Source: Ectothiorhodospiraceae bacterium BW-2
Lineage (GTDB): Bacteria > Pseudomonadota > Gammaproteobacteria > Thiohalomonadales > Thiohalomonadaceae
DNA length: 64,000 nt
Direction of reading: 5' to 3'
NCBI GenBank assembly: GCA_008375315.1
Contig: CP032507.1
Location: 2,727,001 to 2,791,000, forward strand
How positions within the stretch are numbered: the first letter of the stretch is position 1; the number at the start of each line of letters is the position of its first letter. The notes under the pieces were generated by a model, which saw nothing but the letters and a program-made list of their open reading frames with translations, was not told where the DNA came from and did not search any database. Positions 13,490-28,454 of the stretch are shown here, in pieces. A program made the position numbers and the translations under genes.

Positions 13490-13993
13490 ATGGAGCTAAG
13501 TCGTCACAGATGGCAACAACGGGCGGGCGTGGTGCTCGTACTGCTGTTGATTGTTGGCTTTGTCGCCTTTTGGCAGATGGTGCTCACAGAGCAGCCGGAA
13601 CGAGCACTGCATACCATATTTATGGGGCGTCTTCCTAAACCGACTGAGCCGGGGTTAATTGAAGGGGCTGGCGATTTGGTGATGCCCCAAGATCAGTTTC
13701 AACCGATGACAATTACCCACATTCCCAATATCACGATGCAGGAGCGGCTGCCTCACCCCTATGTTGGCCCCTGCATTAATTGCCATCTTATTACAGGGGG
13801 AGCAGAGCCAGGCTCCCAGTTTAAGACCCCCTACGGAGCTGTGATGGAGAGTTTAAGTAAAAATCTAATGAAGATGGGGCCACCGATTAAACCGGTCTCC
13901 AAACGCCCTCACCCCCCTGCGGGGCGCTGCATCAAATGCCACGATATCGTCGTCATGGTACCGGTCAAGAAGAGCCCCTTTATCTGGCAATAG
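13490..13993 (+). CDS. mamT: magnetochrome protein MamT
   Basis: A 167-residue protein with an N-terminal membrane anchor (about 12-32) and two CXXCH haem-attachment motifs, CINCH at 95-99 and CIKCH at 147-151, each within a magnetochrome unit (P-H-P near each motif). MamT is a c-type cytochrome facing the magnetosome lumen, probably helping set the Fe(II)/Fe(III) balance. It starts at the base after the mamS stop and is the last gene before the group II intron. Confidence 0.9.
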   Translation: MELSRHRWQQRAGVVLVLLLIVGFVAFWQMVLTEQPERALHTIFMGRLPKPTEPGLIEGAGDLVMPQDQFQPMTITHIPNITMQERLPHPYVGPCINCHLITGGAEPGSQFKTPYGAVMESLSKNLMKMGPPIKPVSKRPHPPAGRCIKCHDIVVMVPVKKSPFIWQ

Positions 13994-14008
13994 CCAACTC
14001 TATTTTTT

Positions 14009-14707
14009 GTGTACGCCCGGCATGGGCATGAGCTAATGAGGTGAAAGTCCTCTGTAGGAAGGTCACCGTTATTCACTGAGGAGTGAAAAGACGATAACTA
14101 CTAGCGAAAGGCAAGGGCTAATCCGCGAGGAGAGGTCTGAAGGAAGCCGGCCGCAAAACTGCGAGCTGATGAACAAGAACATCATCTGAGGCGTATTCTG
14201 GAGGCGAGATGGCACAAGACATCGAAGCCGTGTGATCTAACGGACAGCGTAAATGATGCAGCAGTGCAGAGAAAGTTCATGTTCTTATCCGGGGAGGTCT
14301 GCTTAACAAGCGATCGTGAAAAGACCTGTTGAGGTTCAGGTTTATCAATCTCGGCCCCTTTGAATCCATCGACGAAGGGAGAGCAAATAGATGGAAAGCG
14401 ATAGCGCCTCATGGGGCAACCGATGAGGAGATTAAGCAGAAGTCAGCAGAGGCCATAGTAGCCAAACGCCTGCTGTAATGGGCAGGACAAGGTGAAGGGC
14501 TGAACATTTAGATAAAGGAGGAGCCATGAGCGACTTGAACGAACAAACGCCGACCGGCGGTGATGCGACTCAGCGTGGCGAAATGAAGCCAGCCTTTAGC
14601 TATAACCCGGATGGGTTAAGCTTCATCATGCTAAATGAACCGCCCTGTGCGGAGCCGCACGCAGGGTGGTGTGGGGAGGGCTGAAGAGATGTCAGCCCTT
14701 ACCCGAT
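14009..14707 (+). mobile_element. group II intron with deleted reverse-transcriptase ORF
   Basis: The segment starts GTGTACGCCC and carries the conserved 5' ribozyme regions of bacterial group II introns, including GTGAAAGTCC and GAGGAAGCCGG-like blocks (14041-14160). Near the 3' end a domain V hairpin is visible at about 14638-14674: an outer stem ACCGCCCT/AGGGTGGT and an inner stem GTGCG/CGCAC around a GAGC loop. A domain VI-like hairpin (GGGCTG/CAGCCC) follows and the element ends in CCCGAT. Full-length introns carry a reverse transcriptase of about 1.3-1.8 kb in domain IV, which is missing. Boundaries are my estimate from the 5' and 3' consensus. It lies between mamT and the Mms6-like gene. 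Confidence 0.85.
14526..14683 (+). pseudogene. remnant of the group II intron-encoded protein
   Basis: A GGAGGA ribosome site at about 14517 leads to an ATG at 14526, the place where the intron-encoded reverse transcriptase normally begins. After about 23 residues (MSDLNEQTP onward) the frame passes into domain V and stops at a TGA. No reverse-transcriptase, maturase or endonuclease motif is present. I infer that an internal deletion joined the start of the gene to the 3' part of domain IV, so splicing could only occur with a maturase supplied from elsewhere. Confidence 0.6.
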
Positions 14708-15018
14708 CGCCTCGCCACGCCTTAACTCTCCCATGTTTGACGGGAAGGGGGATGGCGTGCGGGCTAAAAAATGCTTGTCAATGGGTGTTGCGGTCGCTAT
14801 CATACTTGGGTGTAACGCTTTAAATGATTGTAATTACGAAACAAATTTTTTTACGAATGTAAATTGGTTGCATTTGATTGGCTTGTTCACTTTTTCGTTG
14901 TCTCCCCTTTCGAGCCACTCTCTGCTGGGGGGTAGGGGCAAAATTGTAAGATGAACAAGTCCTATTTAAGTAGTAAGGTTTTTAAGTTAGATGTTTTACC
15001 AAATGTGGGGGTAGATCT
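14708..15018 (+). other. intergenic region between the intron and the Mms6-like gene
   Basis: This 311-base stretch holds no convincing gene. Its second half (about 14815-14880) is clearly AT-rich compared with the flanks and includes a short inverted repeat TTTAC-GAAT-GTAAA, so a promoter for the Mms6-like/mamF unit probably lies here. I cannot assign -35 and -10 boxes with confidence. A weak GGGGG stretch at about 15007 is the likely ribosome site for the ATG at 15019. Confidence 0.4.
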
Positions 15019-16305
15019 ATGTTGGCAGGACAACAGAACGGTGCGGCAACCAATGCGATGTTGGGTAATTTGAATCGCCCCGAAATTGAGGCCGAGGCGA
15101 TGCGTAATGCCGCGGGTGCCAAAATGGGGGCAGGCAATGCGGCAGGCGCTAAGGCGGGGGCGGCAGGAGGAGCTAAAGCGGGTGCCATGGGAGGCGCGAT
15201 GCCGATGCCTGAGATGGAGATGGAGGCGGCTCGTAATGCTGCGGGTGCCAAAATGGGGGCAGGCGCTAAGGCGGGCACAGCCGGTGGAGCAAAAGGGGGA
15301 GCGATGGCCAAGGCGGCTGCCGCTAAAACGGCCGGTGCCACCGGAGTGAAGGGTGCCGCCGCCGCACCGGGTGGGGCGATGGCTGCCAAAGGGGGCGCGA
15401 TGAGCAAAGGGGCGATGATTGCCAAGGGGGCAACGGTGAGCCCCATGGCGATGATCGATCCCTCTGCTGTGATAGGTAAGGGAGCGACTGTCTCGGCTGG
15501 TGCCACGGTGGGTGAAAGTGCCATCGTGGGTGAGGGCGCGACTGTCGGTAAGGGGGCCTCCATCGGTAAAGGGGTGACCTTGGGTGCCGATGCAACGGTT
15601 CGAGGGGGAGCCACTGTTTCTAAGGGGGCGGTTATTGGTCAAGATGCCACTATCGGAAAAATGGCGACTGTCTCCAAAGGGGCCGTTGTCGGCCAAGATG
15701 CAACAGTGATGAAGGGTGCCACTGTCGCTAAAGGGGCAGTGGTTAAGGATGGCGCAACCGTGATGGCCCAAAAAGGGGCCGCGACAGGCGCTATGAAAGG
15801 GGGAGCCGCTACAGGAGCTAAGGCGGGAGGGGTAGCTAAAGCCACCGTCGGAGCCAAAGCGGGTGCGGGTGGGGCGGCCAAGGCGGCTGCTGGAGCCAAA
15901 ATGGCGACAGGTGCTAAAGGGGGCGCGGCTTGTATGGGCGGGGCAACTAAAGCGATGGGAGCCAAGGCCGCTATGGGAGGCGCAACTAAAATGGGGGGAG
16001 CCAAAATGGTCACCGCCGCAGCCACGATGTCAACAACGCCTAAGATGATGACAGTTGCCATGGCTAGCAACGGTAGCTCTGCTGTCGCTAATGGTACCGC
16101 TACCGCTTCCACAGCGGGTTGGAGTAGTAAAGGGCTTGGGCTAGGGCTAGGGATGGGTGTTTGGGGATTCGCTCTACTAGGGGGAGTCTCGGCACTGGCG
16201 GTCTATGGCTATGTGCGTAGCCGTAAAACCGAAGCGGAGCAGAGTTCGAAAGAGCAGGAGCACGCCTTTCAAGTCGAAGAGGCGCTCGATAGCGGCCTAG
16301 CCTAG
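15019..16305 (+). CDS. mms6: Mms6-like magnetosome protein with embedded hexapeptide-repeat beta-helix region
   Basis: A 428-residue protein in three parts. Residues 1-130 are low-complexity Ala/Gly/Lys/Met, with a repeated RNAAGAKMGAG block (residues 29-39 and 72-82). Residues about 131-249 form about 18 imperfect hexapeptides of the type A-[TV]-[VI]-G-[KEQ]-[GD], the signature of a left-handed beta-helix. After another Ala/Gly/Lys-rich arm, residues 371-428 closely resemble the Mms6 C-terminus: GLGLGLGMG, a membrane segment (381-399), YVRSRK and an acidic tail. Mms6 binds iron and shapes magnetite through that tail. Known Mms6 proteins are much shorter, and the hexapeptide region is not part of them. 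The C-terminal call is firm; the beta-helix is inference from the repeat pattern. Confidence 0.8.
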   Translation: MLAGQQNGAATNAMLGNLNRPEIEAEAMRNAAGAKMGAGNAAGAKAGAAGGAKAGAMGGAMPMPEMEMEAARNAAGAKMGAGAKAGTAGGAKGGAMAKAAAAKTAGATGVKGAAAAPGGAMAAKGGAMSKGAMIAKGATVSPMAMIDPSAVIGKGATVSAGATVGESAIVGEGATVGKGASIGKGVTLGADATVRGGATVSKGAVIGQDATIGKMATVSKGAVVGQDATVMKGATVAKGAVVKDGATVMAQKGAATGAMKGGAATGAKAGGVAKATVGAKAGAGGAAKAAAGAKMATGAKGGAACMGGATKAMGAKAAMGGATKMGGAKMVTAAATMSTTPKMMTVAMASNGSSAVANGTATASTAGWSSKGLGLGLGMGVWGFALLGGVSALAVYGYVRSRKTEAEQSSKEQEHAFQVEEALDSGLA

Positions 16306-16397: not shown

Positions 16398-16724
16398 ATG
16401 GCCGTTGAGGTTGTTGTTCACACAGATCGCAGCATGCACTCCAGAATTATGTCGCTATTTAGCTACTTGGGGGTACTGGTGTTTGTGCCTCTGGTCTCAA
16501 ATCGTAGCGATGAGTATGTCAATTTTCACGCGCGTCAAGGGCTGGTGATTTGGATCATCGGGATTGTGGCGATCTTTATGCTCTATATCCCCGGTCTGGG
16601 AAAGTTGGCCTTTGGCTTTTTGGCGTTGATGGTGATGATCTACTCCCTAATGGGAATTGTTTCGGTGATGCTGTTTCGTGCGTGGCGGTTACCGATTGTC
16701 TATAGGCTCTCAACTATGTTATAA
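16398..16724 (+). CDS. mamF: magnetosome membrane protein MamF
   Basis: A 108-residue protein with three hydrophobic segments, matching MamF/MmsF (DUF4870-like). Shared features include FSYLGVLVFVPLV, the EYVNFHARQGLVIW block and an RAWRLP motif near the end. Members of this family control crystal size and shape and are abundant in magnetosome membranes. An AGGAGAA site precedes the ATG. It probably forms a unit with the Mms6-like gene and is followed by a strong terminator. MamF and MmsF are hard to tell apart from sequence alone. Confidence 0.85.
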   Translation: MAVEVVVHTDRSMHSRIMSLFSYLGVLVFVPLVSNRSDEYVNFHARQGLVIWIIGIVAIFMLYIPGLGKLAFGFLALMVMIYSLMGIVSVMLFRAWRLPIVYRLSTML

Positions 16725-16842: not shown

Positions 16843-18138
16843 ATGAGTGTTGAAGATCACCATCGAAATGCCCTCTACCTGATTGCAGCTTTGTGCATGA
16901 TCTTTATGACCATGATTTTGGCGCTGCAGCCTATCTATCTGCGCAGCGTGCTCAATATTCCGCTCGAAGATGCTGGCGCCATTAATGCTAATGTTCAGGT
17001 GCTGACCGAAATAATGGATCTGCTCGTTATCGGCTATCTAGGTTACCTCTCCGATATCTATGGCCGTACTAAAGTGGTCTTCTATGGTTTTATTTTGGCC
17101 GGCATTGCAGCACTCATTATCCCCTTTAGCCTTGAGGTGGGAGCCGTTATGGGGGTGAGTGGGTTAGCTATCTTCTACTTGATGCGGGTCTTTATGTCGC
17201 TCGGTACAACAGCGGTCTGGCCACAGTTAGCCGCTGCGGGGGGTGACTTCTCGACCCCACATAATCGGGCAAAGTTGATGGCAAATATGGCCTTTATGAT
17301 GGCCTTTGGTGCAACACTGGTCTATGGTATTTTGATGCAACTCCCTAAGTATGCCGGCCTAACTGTCAGTATGCTGTTAATTCCTCTGGTCGCCTTTGTG
17401 GGGGCTTGGCTCTCACGCAAGATTTTGGTTGATGTCGCGACCCGCTATGAGGAGGAGGAGATTCCGTGGCGTAAGGTGTGGCAGTTGGTGAAGCGGGATC
17501 GGCGTCTTAGACTTACCTTTATGTCGGCGTTTGCTTCGCGCAACGATATGGTGCTTGTCGGCCTCTTTTTAATGCTCTGGTTTGTCTATTTCGCCGATGT
17601 GGTCGGTATGTCACACGAGGAGGCCGCCGCTAGGGGCGGGATGACGGTGGCGCTGATTGGCTTGGTGATTCTGCTCTCAATACCGTTTTGGGGGTGGTTT
17701 ATTCAGCGTTATGGTCGGATTCCGGCGTTGGCGCTGGGGCTCTTCTTCTCTAGTAGCGGTTTTATGGCGATGTTTTTTGTGGTTAATCCCTATGACTGGG
17801 GGATATTTATTCCCGCTGTGCTGTTGGCGATTGGCCAAGCCGGTACCCTGTTAGCTCCTCAGGTTTTAACTGTCGATCTCTCCCCCTCCTCAATGAGAGG
17901 TACCGTGCTAGGGGCCTTCAATACCGTCGGGGGGATTGGGATCATCTTTTTTGTCCAAATCGGCGGCTTTCTGTTTGATCTCTTTGGCCCTTATGCACCG
18001 TTTGTCTTTACCGGCGTTGGAAATTTACTTATCATGCTCTACGCTATTACGCTGTTAAAGAGTGAACGAGAACCGGTGGAGACCGACTTGGATGCGCTGG
18101 TAGTTGATGATTCGCTCGATATGACTCAATCTAAATGA
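16843..18138 (+). CDS. mamH: magnetosome major facilitator transporter MamH
   Basis: A 431-residue major facilitator superfamily protein with about twelve membrane segments, including the loop motif GYLSDIYGRTK after segment 2. Position directly before mamI and mamE is the conserved mamHIE order. MamH is proposed to take part in iron transport into the magnetosome. No clear ribosome site is seen before the ATG at 16843, which lies in a short gap after the terminator. Confidence 0.88.
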   Translation: MSVEDHHRNALYLIAALCMIFMTMILALQPIYLRSVLNIPLEDAGAINANVQVLTEIMDLLVIGYLGYLSDIYGRTKVVFYGFILAGIAALIIPFSLEVGAVMGVSGLAIFYLMRVFMSLGTTAVWPQLAAAGGDFSTPHNRAKLMANMAFMMAFGATLVYGILMQLPKYAGLTVSMLLIPLVAFVGAWLSRKILVDVATRYEEEEIPWRKVWQLVKRDRRLRLTFMSAFASRNDMVLVGLFLMLWFVYFADVVGMSHEEAAARGGMTVALIGLVILLSIPFWGWFIQRYGRIPALALGLFFSSSGFMAMFFVVNPYDWGIFIPAVLLAIGQAGTLLAPQVLTVDLSPSSMRGTVLGAFNTVGGIGIIFFVQIGGFLFDLFGPYAPFVFTGVGNLLIMLYAITLLKSEREPVETDLDALVVDDSLDMTQSK

Positions 18139-18157: not shown

Positions 18158-18436
18158 ATGCCGAATATAATCGTTGGACTACTGGCACTCTCCATGGGAC
18201 TATGGGGGATGGCGGTATGGTGGTACTCGGTAGAGGAGTTTTTGCGTGGAGCGGTGCCGCTGCTCTTAATCCTGTTCGGATTGGTCGCGCTCATGGCGGG
18301 GGTGAGTCGGGTGAAGCGTTTCGATGATTCGGCGATTCGGAGGGAGCAGCAGCTGGATGACATCGATTTGATGCAACGCTCCTCCGCGAGAGAGGAGACG
18401 AACGATAGCTCTAAGATCGAAGGAGAGGATAGGTAG
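18158..18436 (+). CDS. mamI: magnetosome membrane protein MamI
   Basis: A 92-residue protein with two membrane segments (about 3-23 and 30-50) matching MamI, including LALSMGLWGMAVWW and the RGAVPLLLILFGLVAL block. MamI is essential for magnetosome membrane invagination. The C-terminal 40 residues are a charged hydrophilic tail, longer than in the roughly 70-residue Magnetospirillum protein. AGGA precedes the ATG. Confidence 0.88.
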   Translation: MPNIIVGLLALSMGLWGMAVWWYSVEEFLRGAVPLLLILFGLVALMAGVSRVKRFDDSAIRREQQLDDIDLMQRSSAREETNDSSKIEGEDR

Positions 18437-18442
18437 GGCACC

Positions 18443-20986
18443 ATGATTGAACTGATGAATGAGAGCCGCAATGAGATCGACGAGGGGTTGAAGTGCGGCA
18501 AAGATAATCGCAAATATCTCTATATCATGGCTGCGCTGGCGATTATGATCTTGTCGGCGACCTACATCTACGAGTTTCACTACCTACCGGCCCGTCAAGC
18601 GGCGGCTCAGGGGATAACCCCGGTCAATGGATTGATGAACGCACCGGCAAATGGAGCCAATATCGCTGCCATGGCTCAACCTAGCACTGCTAATCAGATG
18701 CCTTTTATGGCGCAAAATGGCGTAGGTAACAGTTGGCCGCAAGGGGCCAATGTTGCAGCTCAACCCGGTACACCGCCGGTGATTGCGGCTAATGCCGTCC
18801 CTCCAGCCTCGCATCGACAAGATGGCCGAGCACAGATGGTCTGTAGTAGCTGCCATCTAGTACAGGGGGGCGGTACTCAAGGCCAAGGTAATAATGTAGC
18901 GGCCGTGATGCAGCCGATTGATCAAAATCGTCCAGCTAACCCTAATCCACAAGGGAATATGGCGCTGCAACAGCCGCAGCTCCCCCCTACTCAGCCCATG
19001 ATGCCGCAGGGTGTGCAGCAAGGCAACCGGGTAGAAATTGAGGGACAGATTCCGTTTGCTCAAATCGTGCGTCGGGTGCGGCCGGGGATAGTCAACATTA
19101 ACTCTGTGCGCACCCATAGCCCCTCTCAGGTGCAGCAGGATGGCGGAACGGCCCGTTTTGCTAACCCCTTTAGTGGTACTAGCGTCGAGAGCGTCGGCTC
19201 TGGGGTGATGGTTAGTATTGATGGCTTTATTGTGACTAACTACCATGTCATCAAAGATAGCGCCGGTATTGCAGTTACCGTGTTTAGTGATACTGGGACT
19301 CAGCGCTATAGTGCCGAGATTGTTAAGATTGATGAGCGGCGAGATATGGCGCTGTTAAAGATCCGTCCCGATACTTTAATGAAACCGATTCCGCTTGGGG
19401 ATAGTTCACGAGTCGATATTGCCGATTCGGTATTGGCTATTGGAAGCCCATACGGCCTAGACCAGACGGTGAGTCGGGGTATTATCTCCGGTCTGCGCAA
19501 ATCGGTGATGATCGAGAATGTGACCCATGAACAGCTACTTCAGACCGACGCGGCGATTAACCAAGGTAACTCGGGTGGTGCGTTGATCAATCGCGATGGT
19601 GAATTGATTGGGATCAATACCGCTATCTATACACCTAATGGTGCCTTCTCTGGAATCGGCTTTGCTATTCCAGTCAATAAGGTTAAAGAGTTTATTGCTG
19701 AGCATGTGCCGCCAGAGATGCAGGCAAGGGGAGGAGGGCGGCAACAACAGCAGGTAGTCGCTTGGCAGGGCGGCGGTGCAACCTTAGGACAGACGATTGC
19801 CGCTGTGGCCGCGCCACCGATTAGAGCCAATGCCACACCACCGGGAAGCCATAGTGATGGTCGTAACCAGATGGCCTGTACCACTTGCCATCAGATCGTC
19901 GGTGGGGCGAATCCGCCACAGGCTAATGGTGTTGCTTGGCCAGGTGCCATGGGGGGGGCGATGGGACAAAATGTAGCGGCTCAACAGGGGCCACCGATTA
20001 CGGCTGATGCCCCGATTCCGGGGAACCACCGCCGCGATGGTCGCGATAAGGTCGATTGCGCCGTTTGTCACCAAATTAATGGCACCGGTCGCTGGAAGCC
20101 GGTCGCCTGGCCAGGTGCCATGGGGGGGGCGATGGGACAAAATGTAGCGGCTCAACAGGGGCCACCGATTACGGCTGATGCCCCGATTCCGGGGAACCAC
20201 CGCCGCGATGGTCGCGATAAGGTCGATTGCGCTGTTTGTCACCAAATTAATGGCACCGGTCGCTGGAAGCCGGCCGCCTTTACTCAGGCACAGGGGGGAG
20301 CGGTACCGTTTCCCCTACCGATGGTGGTAGCGAATACGGTTGCGGCCCAAATCTACTTTGACGGAGCGGTATTGGAGCCCCTAACCCCCGTTATTATTCA
20401 ACGAATTAATGCCCAAGTAGAGGATGGTGCCTTTGTGACGACGGTCTATCCCGATACCGCTGCCGCTAGAGCAGGTCTCCATGCCGGGGATATCATCTTT
20501 AAACTGAATGGCCGCTGGGTACTCAGTCCGGACGAGTTGATGGCCAGTACCGCGACCTATCAGGTGGGAGATAATCTCCGCCTAGGGGTCTATAGCGGAG
20601 GACAGCGGCGCAATCTCTACTTGGTCTATTCGGGGCAGCTACAGCAGCCTAGTCGCGGTGCAACAGCGACTTTAGCGCAGCAGCAGACGGGTGCTGGTAA
20701 CGAGATGCGTTGGCTCGGTATGGAGTTAAAACCGGTGACTGATGCGCTAATTGTGAAAAATCCGCAGCTCATGGGTAAGCAGGGGGCATGGATCAGTGAT
20801 GTGGATCGTAACTCGGTTGCTGAAGCGAATGGATTGCAAAAAGGTGATCTGCTGAAACGGATTAATGGTCAACCCGTCACCGATATGGCGACATTAGAGT
20901 CGGCGATTAACGGAGCTGATATATCGCAAGGAGTCCTGCTGCTGCTCGAACGCAACGGCCGCAACCTCTATTTGACACTACAGTAG
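18443..20986 (+). CDS. mamE: magnetosome protease MamE with four magnetochrome motifs and two PDZ domains
   Basis: An 847-residue protein: membrane anchor (about 25-44), a first magnetochrome unit with CSSCH at 134-138, an HtrA/trypsin domain (about 205-425) with intact triad His268, Asp301 and Ser377 (GNSGGAL), three further magnetochrome units with CTTCH at 479-483, CAVCH at 539-543 and CAVCH at 596-600, then two PDZ domains (about 655-735 and 755-847). MamE processes magnetosome proteins and is needed for protein sorting and crystal growth. Magnetospirillum MamE has two such haem motifs, both after the protease domain, so four motifs with one placed before it is unusual. Units 3 and 4 come from a 171-base tandem duplication. 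Confidence 0.93.
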   Translation: MIELMNESRNEIDEGLKCGKDNRKYLYIMAALAIMILSATYIYEFHYLPARQAAAQGITPVNGLMNAPANGANIAAMAQPSTANQMPFMAQNGVGNSWPQGANVAAQPGTPPVIAANAVPPASHRQDGRAQMVCSSCHLVQGGGTQGQGNNVAAVMQPIDQNRPANPNPQGNMALQQPQLPPTQPMMPQGVQQGNRVEIEGQIPFAQIVRRVRPGIVNINSVRTHSPSQVQQDGGTARFANPFSGTSVESVGSGVMVSIDGFIVTNYHVIKDSAGIAVTVFSDTGTQRYSAEIVKIDERRDMALLKIRPDTLMKPIPLGDSSRVDIADSVLAIGSPYGLDQTVSRGIISGLRKSVMIENVTHEQLLQTDAAINQGNSGGALINRDGELIGINTAIYTPNGAFSGIGFAIPVNKVKEFIAEHVPPEMQARGGGRQQQQVVAWQGGGATLGQTIAAVAAPPIRANATPPGSHSDGRNQMACTTCHQIVGGANPPQANGVAWPGAMGGAMGQNVAAQQGPPITADAPIPGNHRRDGRDKVDCAVCHQINGTGRWKPVAWPGAMGGAMGQNVAAQQGPPITADAPIPGNHRRDGRDKVDCAVCHQINGTGRWKPAAFTQAQGGAVPFPLPMVVANTVAAQIYFDGAVLEPLTPVIIQRINAQVEDGAFVTTVYPDTAAARAGLHAGDIIFKLNGRWVLSPDELMASTATYQVGDNLRLGVYSGGQRRNLYLVYSGQLQQPSRGATATLAQQQTGAGNEMRWLGMELKPVTDALIVKNPQLMGKQGAWISDVDRNSVAEANGLQKGDLLKRINGQPVTDMATLESAINGADISQGVLLLLERNGRNLYLTLQ
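19937..20278 (+). repeat. 171-bp tandem duplication inside mamE
   Basis: Two adjacent copies (19937-20107 and 20108-20278) of 171 bases, exactly 57 codons, differ at only a few positions, for example GCGCCG versus GCGCTG before the haem motif and GTC versus GCC near the end. Each copy encodes one complete magnetochrome unit with its CAVCHQ haem site. Near-identity at silent sites points to a recent in-frame duplication. Confidence 0.95.
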
Positions 20987-20996
20987 GTAGAGCGGC

Positions 20997-22649
20997 GTGA
21001 ATCGCGAACCCCGTTCTGAGAGAAGACATCGCCGTAAATCGACTCAAATAGGCCAACGAGTCTATCAACCAAAGCAACGGTCGAACACAGAAGCGCCAAA
21101 ATATAGCACGATACCTGACGAGAAGAGAATGGAGACTGAACAGAGAGTGAGCGAGATTGAAGCACCCACTGAGAGGGCCATCAATCCGATGTTGAAGGGG
21201 ATTCAAGCGAAAGAGCGGCAGGAGAGAGAGCTGCGAGAGCGTAAACGGCAGCTACCCCAGCGCAGTAATCTAGTTCCTGACTGGCAAAAACCGATTGCCG
21301 ATGCAGCTCGTACCCTGTTAAAGCGTGCCGTTGCCGAGCCCCCTAAGATTGCGACGAGCAGTCGTAGTGCTGTCAGACAACAGCAGCTGCATAGTGCGAT
21401 GTTAGTTAACCGTCGTCTCGAAGCGGTCACCCAAGCAACACCTGCGACGGTGAAACGGGAGCGTACTCCAGAGTCCGGTAACCCGTTTCGGTATCGCAAA
21501 GAGGGCGAATCGCAACAGCAGCAGAGTCGCCCACAGCAGCGCCGTCTTGAAGCGCAGGCGCTTTTTCTGCAGCGTCGTACTGTGGGGGAGGGGGACGGGA
21601 GCGAGAGACCCGAAGCTCATCCCGACAGCGAGCTTGATAGAGAGAGTTATCCTGTGCCTCAAAAGGGTGCGGAGGGTATCGACGCTGCTTTGGTGGCAAC
21701 GGACGAATTATCTGCACCCGTCGCTGTTGCTGATGAGTTACCGTTGCTAAATGAAGAGGTGTCTATTGAGGAGGTGTGTATTGAAGAGCTCTCCTCTGAT
21801 ACCGCTGCGGTTTTAAAACCGGTAGAGGTTGATCCTGCGGCGATTGAGGCAGAACACGCTGAGCGAATGGCTTGGATGAGCCGCTATGCTGCGTTGGTTA
21901 AACAGCAGCAAGATGAGAATAAGCAGCAACAAAAAGGGGCTGAACAGGAGGAAAAGAGCGAGTTACCAGTGCAAGAGGGACAAGAGATAGTGGAGAAGAG
22001 AGAGTCAACAGAGAGTCCGCCCGAGGATCCCATAGAGGAGGAGAGTCTCTTGCTAGTTAATCAACCGCCGCACGAGGAGATCGAGCAAGAGCCAGAAGAG
22101 CCCGAAGAGCCGACGGAAGAGTATCACGAACCACAGCCTGAATATCGGGAGTTAACTCCTGACATTGAGCTGCTCTGTGATCATCTGCAGCAGTTCTATG
22201 GGCGGATCGAACGGTCTAGGGCTGAAAGTGGCATTGAAGTAGATAGAGGCGCTGAAACTGAGACTGAGCCTGAGATCGAGGGTGAGTTGGTAGAAGAGAT
22301 CGAGATGACTGCTGATCAAGTTGAGAGGGAGGTAGAGATGGAGATGGAGAGTGACATAGACGATGAGGCTTTTAGTGATGCACTAGATAAGGTCGATTCG
22401 TTGCGACTCACCTCAATAGCAGAGCCTGAAGTCGAGAGTCAAGAGGTCAGGGTGACCTGCCAACCGATTGCGGTAGAGTCGGTCGGTAGTGGTATGTTGC
22501 AAATCGTCGGAAGTGTGGTAGCACCCTTTGCCGCAGCGAGCCACTATGCCGTCATGGGTGTGCGCTATTCGGTACAAGATAGCGCTGGGTTTGTTAAAAA
22601 GGCCGGTGGCCTGTTAAAAAAACGGAAGCAGACAAGTGCAACAGAGTGA
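20997..22649 (+). CDS. acidic MamJ-like linker protein (candidate)
   Basis: A 550-residue hydrophilic protein with no membrane segment. The first 200 residues are basic and Gln/Arg-rich, residues about 210-480 are dominated by Glu with several E-P and E-E runs, and the last 60 residues form a more ordered Gly/Ala/Val segment ending in a Lys-rich tail. Position between mamE and mamK, overlapping the latter by 14 bases, is the place of mamJ, whose acidic product links magnetosomes to the MamK filament. I see no direct sequence homology beyond acidic bias, so the role is inferred from position and composition. Start GTG at 20997. Confidence 0.6.
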   Translation: MNREPRSERRHRRKSTQIGQRVYQPKQRSNTEAPKYSTIPDEKRMETEQRVSEIEAPTERAINPMLKGIQAKERQERELRERKRQLPQRSNLVPDWQKPIADAARTLLKRAVAEPPKIATSSRSAVRQQQLHSAMLVNRRLEAVTQATPATVKRERTPESGNPFRYRKEGESQQQQSRPQQRRLEAQALFLQRRTVGEGDGSERPEAHPDSELDRESYPVPQKGAEGIDAALVATDELSAPVAVADELPLLNEEVSIEEVCIEELSSDTAAVLKPVEVDPAAIEAEHAERMAWMSRYAALVKQQQDENKQQQKGAEQEEKSELPVQEGQEIVEKRESTESPPEDPIEEESLLLVNQPPHEEIEQEPEEPEEPTEEYHEPQPEYRELTPDIELLCDHLQQFYGRIERSRAESGIEVDRGAETETEPEIEGELVEEIEMTADQVEREVEMEMESDIDDEAFSDALDKVDSLRLTSIAEPEVESQEVRVTCQPIAVESVGSGMLQIVGSVVAPFAAASHYAVMGVRYSVQDSAGFVKKAGGLLKKRKQTSATE

Positions 22650-23667
22650 TCTTCTGATAGGTATCGATTTAGGTACCGCCAAAACTTCGTTAGTGACTAA
22701 TCGCCAACACCAGGTGAGTTTTAGTTCCGTGGTAGGTTATCCGCGTGATCTAATTGGGGTACGACTGTTAGGTGAGTCACATATTGTCGGTAGCGATGCG
22801 CTAGGCAAGAGCTATCTTGACCTAGTCTATCCTCTGGAGAATGGACTACTCAAAGAGGGGGGAGAACGAGAGCGCGATGCGGCTCGACGCCTCTTTGTCC
22901 ATATCGTTGAGCAGGCCGACATCAAAGAGGGGGAGCGGCTCTGTGCGGTGATAGGAGTCCCGGCGGGGGCTAGTAAGGTCAATCGGCGCATGGTGCTCGA
23001 TCTTGCACGCGAACACTTCGATATTTCGTTAGTTATGTCGCAGCCGTTTCTCTCAGCGTATGCGATCGAAAAGCTGACAAATGCCATTGTGATCGATTTT
23101 GGAGCTGGAACGATAGATCTTTGTGCGATGAAGGGTCATGTACCGCGCTCGGGTGATCAGGTGAGTCTAATTCGGGCCGGCAACGAGATCGATGCAATCT
23201 TTGCCGAAAGCGTGGCGGTTCGCTATCCCCAAACTCAGATGAGTCAGTCGATGGCGCGTCAGATCAAGGAGCGGTTCAGCTTTGTTAAGCGGACTAATAG
23301 TGAACGGGTGATGGTTACTTTACGAGAGGAGGGACGACCGGTCGAGGTTGATGTGACCGATGAGTTGCGTCAGGCGTGTGAGTCGTTACTACCAGAGCTT
23401 CTGGAGCAGACCGAAAAGCTCATTGCCACTTTTAGCCCTGATGATCAGGCCGAAGCGGTAGCTAATGTTATCCTAACCGGTGGCGGGAGTCGGATCAGAG
23501 GGCTGGCCGATGCGATAGCCGATGGACTACAAGCCTATGGGGAGGTGGGGGTCACGACTATGGATGATGTGCTCTTTAATGGCTGTTTGGGGGCGCTTAA
23601 ACTGGCTAGCGAACTTCCGCCCGACTATTGGGAGCAGATGGGCGAAGTGGCGTTGCGTTCTAACTAA
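22636..23667 (+). CDS. mamK: actin-like magnetosome filament protein MamK, copy 1 (Glu-to-Gln at the catalytic position)
   Basis: A 343-residue actin-like protein. Phosphate-1 motif GIDLGTAKTS (9-18), phosphate-2 motif IDFGAGTID (153-161) and adenosine motif TGGGSRI are present. Residue 136 is Gln (codon CAG at 23041) in MSQPFLSAY, where MamK, including copy 2 here (SEPFLVAY) and Glu143 of AMB-1, has the Glu implicated in ATP hydrolysis. The phosphate-2 motif also departs from the usual IDIGAGTTD. It can probably bind nucleotide and polymerise, but may hydrolyse ATP poorly. GTG start within the end of the upstream gene. Confidence 0.9.
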   Translation: MQQSDLLIGIDLGTAKTSLVTNRQHQVSFSSVVGYPRDLIGVRLLGESHIVGSDALGKSYLDLVYPLENGLLKEGGERERDAARRLFVHIVEQADIKEGERLCAVIGVPAGASKVNRRMVLDLAREHFDISLVMSQPFLSAYAIEKLTNAIVIDFGAGTIDLCAMKGHVPRSGDQVSLIRAGNEIDAIFAESVAVRYPQTQMSQSMARQIKERFSFVKRTNSERVMVTLREEGRPVEVDVTDELRQACESLLPELLEQTEKLIATFSPDDQAEAVANVILTGGGSRIRGLADAIADGLQAYGEVGVTTMDDVLFNGCLGALKLASELPPDYWEQMGEVALRSN

Positions 23668-23693
23668 CCCCGCTCTCTAGGTGAGACTCTGCC

Positions 23694-24206
23694 GTGAATA
23701 AAACGGATACCCTTCCTGCCTGTGGGCGTAGCAACCGTCGCTATCTCTATATGATGGGGGTCGCGGCAGCGCTAATTTTGGCCTCTACCTATGTTTATGA
23801 ATTTAAATATCTCCCCTATCAGGCTGACAAAACGGTGCTGGCGATCAACGATACCCGTTCCCCGTCTGTTCTCACCCCGAGCTCCCGACCGGTTGCGCTA
23901 GGAGTGGCTAGGGGAGGAGCAGAGCCATCGCCACAAGCGCCAGTTTATGTTGCTGGTGCTAAGTTGGTGCCGAACGATAACGGCGTTTTTGTCAGTGGAG
24001 TAGCGGCCAATTCCGTTGCCGCAGAGGCAGATATTCAAGCAGGCGATCTTATCTTTAAAGTTAACGGGCAAAGGGTCAACCATCCGCAACAGTTGTTACG
24101 CTTAGCTAGTGAGGGGGCGTTTGTCGGCGGGGATTCGGTTCGGGTTAGTCTCTATCGTCAGGGACGGCGTCTCAATCGCTACCTGCCGCTCGACCCCTTT
24201 CGTTAA
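23694..24206 (+). CDS. short MamE-derived PDZ protein without protease or haem motifs
   Basis: A 170-residue protein with a membrane anchor (about 17-36) and one PDZ domain (about 85-165). Its first 40 residues parallel those of MamE: C-G-x-x-N-R-x-Y-L-Y near the start and a Y-E-F-x-Y-L-P ending after the anchor, and the PDZ resembles the MamE C-terminal PDZ (AGDLIFKVNG). There is no CXXCH and no trypsin domain, so it is not a canonical MamP, although it sits where a MamP-like gene might be expected. I infer descent from mamE by internal deletion after duplication. It could act as a docking competitor or adaptor. GTG start. Confidence 0.7.
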   Translation: MNKTDTLPACGRSNRRYLYMMGVAAALILASTYVYEFKYLPYQADKTVLAINDTRSPSVLTPSSRPVALGVARGGAEPSPQAPVYVAGAKLVPNDNGVFVSGVAANSVAAEADIQAGDLIFKVNGQRVNHPQQLLRLASEGAFVGGDSVRVSLYRQGRRLNRYLPLDPFR

Positions 24207-24232
24207 CTCTGCAACCGCGTGGTGATTTAGGT

Positions 24233-24571
24233 ATGAGCGTGCTAGCAGAGCCTCTGTTACAGCAGCGATTTCTAGTCGCAGAAGAGAGTGATGCGCACAG
24301 TATGGCGGCGCAAATTATTCAGGGGGCGCTGATTACAGATAGCAGAGCTGAGATGGCTCCGTTTTGGCTAAATGAGCTGCCGACCGTTTCCATCGCGCTC
24401 GATAGTGGTTTGACACCGGGGAGTCTTTCGGTGGTGGTCGCCGTGGGGAGTGGGGCGAGTGCTATAACGAAGCAGCAAGAGCAGACGCTAGCGTCTAAGC
24501 GAGAAACGGTGGGCTGGTTAGAGGAGCTGCAGCAAGAGATGCAGGAGCTGATTCGAAGAGAATCGATTTGA
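24233..24571 (+). CDS. unknown protein in the magnetosome cluster
   Basis: A 112-residue soluble protein I do not recognise. It has a mixed N-terminal region, a central beta-type stretch (TVSIALDSG, LSVVVAVGSG) and a C-terminal charged helix that could form a coiled coil (about 80-110). It lies 26 bases after the mini-MamE gene and 57 bases before mamK2, on the same strand, so co-expression with filament genes is likely. A role with MamK is only suggested by position. Confidence 0.6.
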   Translation: MSVLAEPLLQQRFLVAEESDAHSMAAQIIQGALITDSRAEMAPFWLNELPTVSIALDSGLTPGSLSVVVAVGSGASAITKQQEQTLASKRETVGWLEELQQEMQELIRRESI

Positions 24572-24628
24572 CTTGGTATAGCGTTTAACGCAACAGTAAT
24601 TCGACTAAAACCGATATGAGGGAGAGAT

Positions 24629-25651
24629 ATGGAACAGCGTGATCTGTTTATTGGCATCGATCTGGGTACTTCCAGAAGTGCCATCATTACCAATCGTGGC
24701 ACTCGGGCTAATTTTGTCTCTGCGGTGGGTTATCCGCGAGATCTGATTGGGGTACGCCTCCTAGGCGATAGCTTTGTCGTTGGCGATGAGGCGTGCGGTA
24801 AGAGCTATCTGGATGTGACCTATCCGCTTGAAGATGGTGTTTTTAAAGAGAGTGCGGATCGGGAGAGCGATGCGGCGCGTAAACTGATTGCCCACACAGT
24901 ACAGATGGCTGATCCGAAAGAGGGGGAGCGAATTTGCGGCATTATCGGTGTGCCGGCCAATGCGAGTAATGTCAATAAAGAGATGGTGCTGCGCTTTGCG
25001 CGTGAGGTGATGGATGTGGCGCTGGTAGTCTCAGAGCCGTTTTTGGTCGCCTACGGGGTTGAGAAATTGGTGAATAGTATTGTGATCGATATCGGTGCTG
25101 GTACGACCGATATTTGTGCTCTAAAAGGGCAGCTACCGCAGCGGGATGATCAAGATAGTATGATTAAAGCGGGTGACTATATCGATAAACTGCTGATGGA
25201 GTCGATTCAGCGCCGCTATCCCGAAGTACAAGTGACCAAATATCTGGTGCGCCAACTCAAGGAGCGCTACGCCTTTGTCGGGGTGCCGGCCGAAAAGGTG
25301 GTGGTGACGCTGCGTCAAAACGGCAAGCCGGTCGAGGTCGATATTACCGAAGATATTCGTCTTGCCTGTGAGTCTATTATCTCGGAAGTGGTCGAACGGA
25401 CTGCTAAATTGATAGCCTCGTTTGATCCCTCCTATCAAGAGCTGGCGGTGGCCAATATTATCCTTGCTGGGGGTGGGTCGCGCATTAGCGGTCTGTCACA
25501 GATGATTGGTGACGGTTTAGCCGAATTTGGTCGGGTCGGTATCAGTTTGGTGGATGATGTTATCTATGCCGGCTGTGAGGGGGCGATTAAACTCGCCTCG
25601 GAGCTTCCGCCGGAGTATTGGGAGCAGGTGGGAGAGACTAGCATCGGCTAG
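24629..25651 (+). CDS. mamK: actin-like magnetosome filament protein MamK, copy 2 (canonical)
   Basis: A 340-residue actin-like protein with all expected motifs: phosphate-1 GIDLGTSRSA, catalytic Glu136 in VVSEPFLVAY, phosphate-2 VIDIGAGTTDIC and adenosine LAGGGSRI. It aligns with copy 1 without gaps for at least the first 160 residues. MamK filaments align magnetosomes in a chain, and ATP hydrolysis makes them dynamic. GAGGGAGA precedes the ATG. It is the last gene of the cluster and the next gene is on the opposite strand. Confidence 0.92.
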   Translation: MEQRDLFIGIDLGTSRSAIITNRGTRANFVSAVGYPRDLIGVRLLGDSFVVGDEACGKSYLDVTYPLEDGVFKESADRESDAARKLIAHTVQMADPKEGERICGIIGVPANASNVNKEMVLRFAREVMDVALVVSEPFLVAYGVEKLVNSIVIDIGAGTTDICALKGQLPQRDDQDSMIKAGDYIDKLLMESIQRRYPEVQVTKYLVRQLKERYAFVGVPAEKVVVTLRQNGKPVEVDITEDIRLACESIISEVVERTAKLIASFDPSYQELAVANIILAGGGSRISGLSQMIGDGLAEFGRVGISLVDDVIYAGCEGAIKLASELPPEYWEQVGETSIG

Positions 25652-26427: not shown

Positions 26428-27057
26428 ATGAGCAGTAGATACAGCATAGGTGAGTTTGCTAAGCGCATTGGGCGGTCAGTGCAAACCGTGCGGCGTTGGG
26501 AAAGAGAGGGGAAGTTGCAGTCCAAGCGCCTGCCATCGGGGCATCGGTATTTCGATGAGTCCGATGTTCGCCTGATGCTGGGCGGGGCGCCTAAGAGGCG
26601 AGATGTGGTGGTGTATTGCCGAGTCTCCAGTGCGGGACAAAAAGACGATCTTGCCTCCCAGGTCAAAGCGATGGAAACCTACTGTCTGGGCGCAGGGATT
26701 GCGGTCGATGAGTGGGTGCAAGAAATCGGCGGCGGGATGAACTTCAAGCGCAAGCGCTTTCTCGCTCTGGTCGATCGGATTCATCGTGGGGAAGTGCGCC
26801 TACTGCTGATTGCCCACAAGGATCGGTTGATGCGCTTTGGCTTCGATTTGTTGGCGCATATCGCAGCAGAAAATGGCTGTGAGATAGTCGTTGTGAACCA
26901 GGAGTCTCTCTCCCCTGAGCAAGAGATGGTTGAGGATTTACTGGCGATTGTGCATACCTTCAGTTGCCGACTGTATCGGATGCGCAAGTACAAGCAGCAG
27001 ATCAAGGAGGATTTTCCCGATAGTCCCATTCAGTTACCAAAGGATGTGTGCGAATGA
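26428..27057 (+). CDS. tnpA: IS607-family transposase TnpA (serine recombinase)
   Basis: A 209-residue protein: N-terminal MerR-like helix-turn-helix (SIGEFAKRIGRSVQTVRRWE) and a serine-recombinase domain from about residue 58 with catalytic Ser67 in YCRVSS and the conserved Arg in KDRLMRFG. IS607 transposases move a circular intermediate by a resolvase-type mechanism with low target specificity. The stop overlaps the tnpB ATG by four bases. It looks intact. Confidence 0.92.
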   Translation: MSSRYSIGEFAKRIGRSVQTVRRWEREGKLQSKRLPSGHRYFDESDVRLMLGGAPKRRDVVVYCRVSSAGQKDDLASQVKAMETYCLGAGIAVDEWVQEIGGGMNFKRKRFLALVDRIHRGEVRLLLIAHKDRLMRFGFDLLAHIAAENGCEIVVVNQESLSPEQEMVEDLLAIVHTFSCRLYRMRKYKQQIKEDFPDSPIQLPKDVCE

Positions 27058-28454
27058 AGGTCACGCGAGTTTTGAACGCAAAACGCCCGAACAAGGGCAA
27101 AGTCGCCGCATTGCGCGAGCAGGCGCGTCGGCTTGGCCAAGTGCGTACCGAGGTCTGGCAGAGGTTTGGGTCGGTCGGTGGCGTGGGTCTCTCGGATCGC
27201 AAGATTCGCGATGGCTGGCTGAAGGAAGGTCGCGCCTTTCCGGTTTCCGCCAACGCTTGGAAAGAGACCCTACGCGATGCGAAGGGCAACATCACCGCCT
27301 GCATGGAAGCGGCCAAGGTTAAGGTTCGCCAATCTGTCTTTCGTCACACCCGGGACGAAGCCGAGCAAAAACGCCTGTTCACTGCCCTCAAGCGCAACGA
27401 ATGGACGGGCGATTCTTATCTGCGCCGGCTCATGCGTAAGCACTGGCATCATGGCCATAACCATACCCATAACCAGATTATTGTCCGTTCAGATAATTAC
27501 ACTACCTTCCTCCTGGGTGGGTGCGTCTGGATCAAGATCCCCGGCCTTGTTAAAGGTCAGCGTATCGCCATTTTGCTCAATACCACGATCACGCCAACTG
27601 GCACTCTGCGCGTCATTATCAAAGACGATGACCGTATTGAGGTTCACACCACCGTTAATGTCGAAACCAAACAGGATTGCGGCAAGCGCACCCTCGGCAT
27701 TGATAAAGGCTACTCCGAAGTGCTTGTGGATTCAGACGGCGATCACCACGGCCAGGAGCTCGGTCAAGTACTGACCGAACAATCCGATAAGCTAAAAGCC
27801 AAATATCAGCGCCGATCAAAACTGCGAGCGCTCGCCAACACGACCCGTAACCCGCATAAACGCGAGCACATTCGTCGCTTTAACCTTGGGCGCAAAAAGC
27901 TAAACCGGCAGATGGACAAAACCCATGCAAGCATCCGTGATGTGGTGTTTCAGTCGGTTCATAAGGTTGTTGATAAAGCCGCCGTGATTGCGGCGGAAGA
28001 CCTCACCGCCCCGATGTCGGGCAAGTCCTTCGGCAAGAACGTCAATCGTCGGCTGGCAAGCTGGACGAAAGGCGTCATTGCCGAAGCACTTGATAGTGTT
28101 TCAAGCCGCAGAGGTTCTGCGGTCGTTCTGGTCAATCCTGCCTACACATCGCAAATTGATTCCCGCAACGGATGCCTACTCGGCAAACGCCAGGGGGATC
28201 GGTTTTACTGTTTCGACGGGGTTGTGTTGCAGGCAGACCAGAACGCTGCGCGAAACGTGCTGGCACGGTTGTCCGATCTTGACATCGATCGGTTCATGCC
28301 GTACCGACAGGTGAAGACGATCTTGCAAGCACGGACTGAGCGCCTCCGGTTGGGACTGCTCAACCAGGACTCCAGTTGCTCGCCCGTACGGGTGTTATCA
28401 ACGGAGAGCGAATTACCGAAAAACTGCCATGAGCAACTTTGCTTAGGTTTTTAG
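27054..28454 (+). CDS. tnpB: TnpB (RNA-guided nuclease family, OrfB)
   Basis: A 466-residue protein with the split RuvC-like triad: Asp217 in TLGIDKG, Glu315 in IAAEDL and Asp395 in LQADQNAARN. TnpB proteins are RNA-guided nucleases that help keep the element in place. The zinc-binding part between the last two RuvC segments is degenerate: where typical proteins have two CxxC pairs, this one reads SQIDSRNG and FYCFDG, leaving about one ligand. This variant is known in some TnpB lineages, so it does not by itself show inactivity. The ATG at 27054 (ATGA overlap with tnpA) is preferred to the upstream GTG. Confidence 0.88.
   Translation: MKVTRVLNAKRPNKGKVAALREQARRLGQVRTEVWQRFGSVGGVGLSDRKIRDGWLKEGRAFPVSANAWKETLRDAKGNITACMEAAKVKVRQSVFRHTRDEAEQKRLFTALKRNEWTGDSYLRRLMRKHWHHGHNHTHNQIIVRSDNYTTFLLGGCVWIKIPGLVKGQRIAILLNTTITPTGTLRVIIKDDDRIEVHTTVNVETKQDCGKRTLGIDKGYSEVLVDSDGDHHGQELGQVLTEQSDKLKAKYQRRSKLRALANTTRNPHKREHIRRFNLGRKKLNRQMDKTHASIRDVVFQSVHKVVDKAAVIAAEDLTAPMSGKSFGKNVNRRLASWTKGVIAEALDSVSSRRGSAVVLVNPAYTSQIDSRNGCLLGKRQGDRFYCFDGVVLQADQNAARNVLARLSDLDIDRFMPYRQVKTILQARTERLRLGLLNQDSSCSPVRVLSTESELPKNCHEQLCLGF

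Follow-up and report, generated by a model that had tools for sequence, protein, structure and literature searches.

A long Mms6-type protein in a magnetosome gene cluster

The gene at 15019-16305 raises the question of what an extended hexapeptide repeat might do in a protein that otherwise ends like the biomineralization protein Mms6. The DNA analyzed is a stretch of 64,000 nucleotides of Ectothiorhodospiraceae bacterium BW-2 (hereafter the window; G+C 53.4%), from a genome that consists of one contig of 4,074,140 bases. Upstream of the gene lie mamM, mamO, mamA, mamQ, mamB, mamS and mamT, and downstream a DUF4870 gene, mamH, mamI, mamE and two mamK genes, with the matches of mamO, mamA, mamS, mamT, mamE and DUF4870 falling below the curated cut-offs. 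Its neighbors include:

13490-13993, + strand: MamT (177.8 bits, below the cut-off of 200)
16398-16724, + strand: DUF4870 protein that resembles MamF/MmsF in family and position (23.2 bits, E = 7.1e-5, below the cut-off of 25)
16843-18138, + strand: MamH (profile match)
18158-18436, + strand: MamI (profile match)
18443-20986, + strand: MamE protease (545.7 bits, below the cut-off of 800)

The gene itself was divided as follows:

15019-16305, + strand: gene of the Mms6-type protein with a predicted hexapeptide beta-helix domain (ORF of 428 aa, ATG start)
15019-15408, + strand: N-terminal Ala/Gly/Lys-rich arm, residues 1-130 (low model confidence; no Pfam match at E<=1)
15088-15108, + strand: acidic E-x-E-x-x-R-N motif, first copy, residues 24-30 (motif scan)
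15223-15237, + strand: second such motif, EAARN, residues 69-73 (motif scan)
15373-15441, + strand: imperfect tandem repeat at the DNA level, with 1.9 copies of a 36-nt period (18-nt period over 15373-15431), spanning the N-terminal boundary of the hexapeptides
15412-15771, + strand: residues 132-251, hexapeptide domain of 20 hexamers and probable beta-helix (Pfam, shuffles, model, alignment)
15772-16128, + strand: C-terminal Ala/Gly/Lys-rich arm, residues 252-370 (13 K/R and 0 D/E over 251-370)
16129-16212, + strand: GL repeat and membrane segment, residues 371-398 (Mms6 model; predicted helix 380-427, pLDDT about 58)
16213-16302, + strand: C-terminal tail, residues 399-428, RSRK followed by acidic residues (sequence)

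The Mms6-type C-terminus that the first-pass annotation had recognized from the sequence alone was borne out by the Mms6 model NF040917, which matched residues 301-414 (E = 1.6e-10), the GL segment starting at residue 373. The protein thus displays the GL repeat, the membrane helix and the acidic C-terminal tail (7 D/E and 4 K/R over 399-428) by which an Mms6 is recognized, and its gene has an mmsF-type neighbor inside the magnetosome cluster, given the DUF4870 match of 23.2 bits against a cut-off of 25. While the Mms6 score of 41.4 bits lay below the curated cut-off of 200, that value was reached by 0/20, 0/369, 0/398, 0/2 and 0/4 genomes in successive searches, and the cut-off therefore fits a narrow group. 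The C-terminus also matched the MamD model NF040916 (E = 1.7e-7), again under the curated cut-off. The length of 428 residues and the Ala/Gly/Lys-rich arms noticed earlier were likewise in agreement with our measurements (A+G fraction of 0.57 in the N-terminal and 0.53 in the C-terminal arm), and no secretion signal was evident in the protein by eye.

The GL repeat, membrane segment and acidic tail, as well as an A/G-rich stretch before the GL segment, are shared with Mms6 of Magnetospirillum and with Mms6-L. The position beside a MamF/MmsF-type gene is also that of mms6 in Magnetospirillum, where we take the two genes to adjoin. The differences from Mms6 lie in the added hexapeptide domain, in the low model score given above, and in the length, since the window protein has 428 and its longest homologue 713 residues, compared with 157 in AMB-1 Mms6 according to the residue numbering in PMC11332177. 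Proteins of the MamD (Mms7, NF040916), MamG and Mms5 group resemble the window protein in having an Ala-rich soluble part followed by a glycine-rich membrane helix (PMC11628618) and a motif of the E-G-x-R-[NQ] type, and the MamD model matches weakly; as judged by eye, MamD-type proteins differ in carrying other repeats, of the GKTFTV type.

Evidence for the hexapeptide domain

Counting an aliphatic residue at position i and a small residue at i-2, with one miss allowed, the longest in-phase hexapeptide run in the protein was 21, whereas no run exceeded 8 when the whole protein was shuffled 2000 times, or 7 in as many shuffles of the domain. The register adopted comprises 20 uninterrupted hexamers at residues 132-251; the first-pass annotation was therefore right in describing an in-phase repeat domain, and its count of about 18 hexapeptides at 131-249 has been revised. 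The suggested search against hexapeptide families gave a clear match to Pfam Hexapep PF00132 (E = 2.1e-17 for the whole protein, 62.4 bits against a cut-off of 27; E = 4.3e-20 for the domain alone), which was found in none of five shuffles, one reversed sequence and two arms used as controls, and which was kept in the one column-preserving shuffle. The two homologues described below scored 60.3 and 65.3 bits, above the Pfam cut-off, and Ala occupied i-2 in 52 of the 60 hexamers of the three proteins.

A profile of the domain matched 220 PDB sequences, and among the 60 listed, 55 were hexapeptide-type by name, one was uncharacterized and four were designed 'Cake' proteins. Since the latter match as well (best 1.4e-9 among the matches listed), repetition may inflate the profile E-values. 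The domain shares the hexapeptide consensus and phase with left-handed beta-helix proteins such as LpxA, LpxD, gamma carbonic anhydrase and eIF2B epsilon, a group represented among the PDB sequence and profile matches. It differs from these proteins in lacking, in the window protein, His, Asn, Cys and aromatic residues, in its 20 uninterrupted hexamers, in the frequent Ala at i-2, and in being joined to an Mms6-type membrane C-terminus. Histidine was absent from the domain in the window protein and in L017 and occurred once in L018, and all hexapeptide runs measured elsewhere in the same genome contain both His and aromatics. Hexapeptide acyltransferases use a catalytic histidine in the helix; considering that the window domain is devoid of His, Asn, Cys and aromatics, an acyltransferase reading was rejected.

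Within the window domain, the coils share 4-13 of 18 residues and 20-36 of 54 nucleotides. A recent DNA-level expansion of the whole domain is thus unsupported, the only tandem repeat in the DNA being that at the N-terminal edge.

Homologues and distribution

Matches to the Mms6 model were found in three of 20 genomes of the order, namely the window's genome, G002 and G003, the latter two belonging to another genus within the family. G003 encodes a protein of 713 residues (L017) and G002 a protein of at least 335 residues that is cut by the contig end (L018). Both share the hexapeptide domain, the GL segment and the tail with the window protein, and the suggested search for this architecture in other genomes thus succeeded. 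The three domains align without a gap over 120 residues, with 61 and 68 identical positions between the window protein and its homologues and 83 between L017 and L018, and the arms differ greatly in length. The six-residue phase, whose drift had been named as a point against the domain, was accordingly kept in both homologues. The pS/pN values were 0.70/0.19 (L017-L018), 0.62/0.33 (window-L017) and 0.70/0.30 (window-L018), pS being near saturation and the ratios rough. Judging from this comparison of three homologous sequences, which stem from a single family and are not independent, the hexapeptide domain is under constraint at the protein level. The gene next to that of L017 is of the DUF4870 type (weak, 20.0 bits) and is followed by the contig end; by eye, the L018 gene is followed by a DUF4870-type gene and then by mamH-, mamI- and mamE-like genes.

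In wider searches the Mms6 model matched in six of 369 genomes of the class, 47 of 398 of the phylum and all four of another order, of which one had not come up in the other searches, making 55 genomes in total when the window's genome is counted once. Among the 1469 frames that reached 100 aa in 104 loci, with a further locus (L111) scanned separately, hexapeptide runs of at least 7 occurred only in the three proteins and in the hexapeptide-enzyme loci of the window's genome; the domain is therefore seen in one family and two genera. Of the 52 remaining genomes with an Mms6 match, 50 showed no such domain in the frames read, which included at least one match per genome, and G401 and G497 had only short Mms6-matching frames that were left out. 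For phylum-search matches without a locus, frames of at least 240 aa were read, and shorter ones, too short for the architecture seen here, only inside fetched stretches. The other GL-type frames had hexapeptide runs of at most 5 (list of 77 GL-pattern frames, including a few that do not resemble Mms6). In L015 and L016 the Mms6-like proteins are devoid of the domain, and the L015 gene precedes, by eye, DUF4870-like and mamH-like genes.

In the literature searched, which was mostly outside subscription journals, we found no description of an Mms6 or other magnetosome protein with a hexapeptide repeat or left-handed beta-helix, in line with the earlier impression that no such Mms6 had been described; papers naming bactofilins together with magnetosomes were present in it. 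Mms6-L proteins have already been described (PMC9840458), and it is possible that the supplements of that paper mention the combination that appears new here, an Mms6-type protein with a predicted hexapeptide beta-helix domain.

Fold and handedness of the predicted helix

The full-length AlphaFold2 model built on the three-sequence alignment had a mean pLDDT of 52.4, with confidence confined to the hexapeptide segment: ten-residue blocks over 131-250 reached 77-89, the arms stayed mostly below 50, and helix 380-427 was at about 58. The domain modeled alone gave a mean pLDDT of 77.1 and a pTM of 0.68. The repeat region was thus predicted to be ordered, where disorder would have counted against the original proposal. 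Among the matches listed, the structures nearest to the domain model were bactofilins (6rib_A, Z 12.5, rmsd 1.7, 101 aligned residues), which were likewise closest to the full-length model (Z 13.0). Behind them came chiefly pectate lyases, autotransporters and further beta-helices. We take all of these to be right-handed helices, triangular ones in the bactofilins. Foldseek retrieved no match at E<=0.001 from the PDB and none from viral models, where the best was 3.9e-3 and a few LpxA-like names appeared at E 0.05-0.2. Among the 50 PDB entries listed per structural search, CcmM (rmsd about 12) was the sole recognized hexapeptide-type chain, an outcome that is still compatible with a hexapeptide fold.

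The sequences pointed in the other direction. Scored with a model of 20 LpxA sequences, less three with inner stops, the three domains reached 26.8, 39.0 and 28.5 bits, compared with a maximum of 2.4 among shuffles, whereas a model of 19 bactofilin matches gave 0.0, -0.1 and -1.0 bits, values outscored by 31, 33 and 44 of 50 shuffles (50 shuffles of window-domain composition for both models, 47 of 50 scores being reported for LpxA). The hexapeptide runs were 19-21 long in the three domains, compared with 7-10 among the 20 LpxA matches and 3-4 among the 19 bactofilin ones, and bactofilin PF04519 had no Pfam match at E<=1 in the window protein or its homologues. A bactofilin identity, which the first-pass annotation had wanted checked, was thus rejected by sequence, even though bactofilins are the closest in structure to the AlphaFold2 models. 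On the same evidence an LpxA-type, left-handed fold seems likelier than a bactofilin-type one; because sequence favors the LpxA type and the best AlphaFold2 structural matches are bactofilins, the left-handed assignment is tentative. AlphaFold2 has been described to over-predict beta-solenoids for repeats, and its models for diverged repeats to agree with other methods (PMC11795689).

A conserved hydrophobic face

With three hexamers per coil and i-1 taken as the outward position, hydrophobic residues at i-1 in the three proteins were concentrated on one face of the predicted helix, occupying 17/21 positions on face A, 0/21 on face B and 3/18 on face C. The joint permutation p was about 1e-4, or about 3e-4 when allowing for the choice of the face after inspection, and the single proteins gave p values of 0.001, 0.00015 and 0.023. 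Such a conserved hydrophobic face would suit self-association or the binding of a partner.

Proposed role and alternatives

Taken together, the domain and its phase, conservation, hydrophobic face pattern and missing catalytic residues, and the gene neighborhood, all observed at the level of sequence, are consistent with an Mms6-type (Mms6-L-like) protein that has, on its N-terminal side, a non-catalytic beta-helix of the hexapeptide type, left-handed by sequence and comprising about 20 hexamers or just under seven coils. We propose, with about as much weight for as against, that this helix clusters Mms6-type tails at the magnetosome membrane. It would fold in the cell as a rigid oligomerization module on the cytoplasmic side, its single hydrophobic flat face being packed against a further copy of itself or against a partner; oligomerization would present several C-terminal GL/membrane/acidic tails jointly at the membrane, and the clustered tails may influence crystal growth, as for Mms6-type tails. 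Among the points against such a module are the possible inflation of the profile E-values and the common family of the three sequences, both mentioned above. The hydrophobic ladder could also be masked by the protein's own arms, and, under the positive-inside rule, by which positive residues flanking a membrane segment face the cytosol, the RSRK trailing the membrane segment would place the C-terminus, and not the N-terminus, in the cytosol. Mms6 topology and the role of its N-terminus are themselves described as open (PMC11332177). In the same source, Mms6 that lacks the N-terminal domain assembles into micellar homopolymers in vitro, in AMB-1 the N-terminal domain keeps the protein in the cytosol and controls its conditional localization, and the acidic tail is the iron-binding part. 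MamF-like (DUF4870) proteins are needed for the targeting of MamD, Mms5 and MamJ, which combine an alanine-rich soluble N-terminus with a glycine-rich C-terminal membrane helix (PMC11628618). On account of these published data on AMB-1 Mms6 and MamF-like proteins, we favor the clustering of tails over the alternatives below. Since the N-terminal part contains an apparently foldable, rigid and deletable domain, topology, oligomer state and crystal effect would be separately testable. Were the domain to order the tails, it would be a natural solenoid controlling a mineral and useful for template design.

The helix may instead be a cytosolic spacer or tether, the protein being inserted with the aid of the neighboring MamF/MmsF-like protein and the rigid helix holding a binding surface off the magnetosome, in contact with another component. 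The comparable architecture of MamD, Mms5 and MamJ would fit this (PMC11628618), whereas Mms6 itself showed no interaction with MamF-like proteins in that study, and the partner would be putative. A DUF4870-type gene lies directly 3' in the window and in L017 (weak matches) and in L018 (by eye), and polar residues predominate on faces B and C. We consider such a tether rather improbable.

The first-pass annotation had suggested that a flat face could template a crystal; the helix would then lie in the magnetosome lumen, a location assumed in that annotation, with a flat Thr-rich or polar face bound to a magnetite face, and a comparison is offered by insect antifreeze beta-helices, which carry Thr ladders. 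In the window protein, i-1 on face B is Thr in 7/7 hexamers (p 0.010, window alone), Thr/Ser fill 17 of the 40 flat positions, and acidic residues in the three proteins favor the corner after face A (15 versus 2 and 4; p 0.005, post hoc). The Thr ladder is nevertheless lost in both homologues, which read K T R S T T K and A T R T A S T. Furthermore, of the 120 flat positions counted over the three proteins, 17 are K/R (2 in the window protein, 9 and 6 in the homologues) and one is D/E, the latter in the window protein, so that these acid-poor faces appear ill suited to iron-oxide templating by acids, and the iron-binding part of Mms6 is the acidic tail (PMC11332177). Considering also that no secretion signal was evident by eye, the templating idea did not hold up well, and we regard it as improbable.

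A regulatory role, in which the module would bar the protein from membranes until biomineralization and might then be cleaved, the helix conferring only solubility and stability, overlaps the clustering proposal, as all readings overlap in part. The N-terminal domain of AMB-1 Mms6 is required for conditional localization, and MamE may cleave it (PMC11332177); mamE, mamO and mamM homologues are present in the cluster. Any similarity of that domain to the hexapeptide domain would be putative, though, and the Mms6-like proteins of L015 and L016 lack the domain; we thus judge this role to be distinctly unlikely. We are similarly doubtful of an ordered lattice, in which the coil spacing of the beta-helix would array Mms6 tails, or a Thr-rich flat face, and set crystal size or habit, the helix having been recruited or grown de novo from the low-complexity arms. 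Were it true, the protein would encode a periodic scaffold for magnetite.

Finally, it is very hard to credit that the domain is a low-complexity Ala/Gly/Lys/Val tract without stable structure whose ordered model reflects AlphaFold2 bias: the over-prediction of beta-solenoids for repeats (PMC11795689), the conflict over handedness and the 'Cake' matches would be in keeping with it, but the in-phase gap-free conservation, the protein-level constraint, the three-face asymmetry, the profile matches beyond shuffles and the divergence of the repeats (4-13/18 residues shared between coils) all argue against it.

Further observations on the locus

E-x-x-R-[NQ]-type motifs occur twice in the N-terminal arm of the window protein (15088-15237) and six times in the L017 protein (residues 17-261); a similar EG-x-RQ motif turned up across many further GL-type frames. 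Between mamT and the gene, about 1 kb (13994-15018) is without a convincing gene, and a promoter scan upstream of 15019 gave no more hits than shuffles. A second GL-repeat protein of 159 aa lies outside the window (L109, G000 2718538-2721891), with feoA- and feoB-like genes adjacent by eye.

Within mamE, a 171-nt unit is present twice at 19937-20279 with 98% matches, duplicating a CxxCH-bearing stretch, and Pfam detected four magnetochrome stretches in the MamE protein. The two mamK genes (22636-25651) enclose an ORF with a MamE-like PDZ domain (23694-24206), and just past the magnetosome genes, an IS607-type transposase and TnpB pair is located at 26428-28451.
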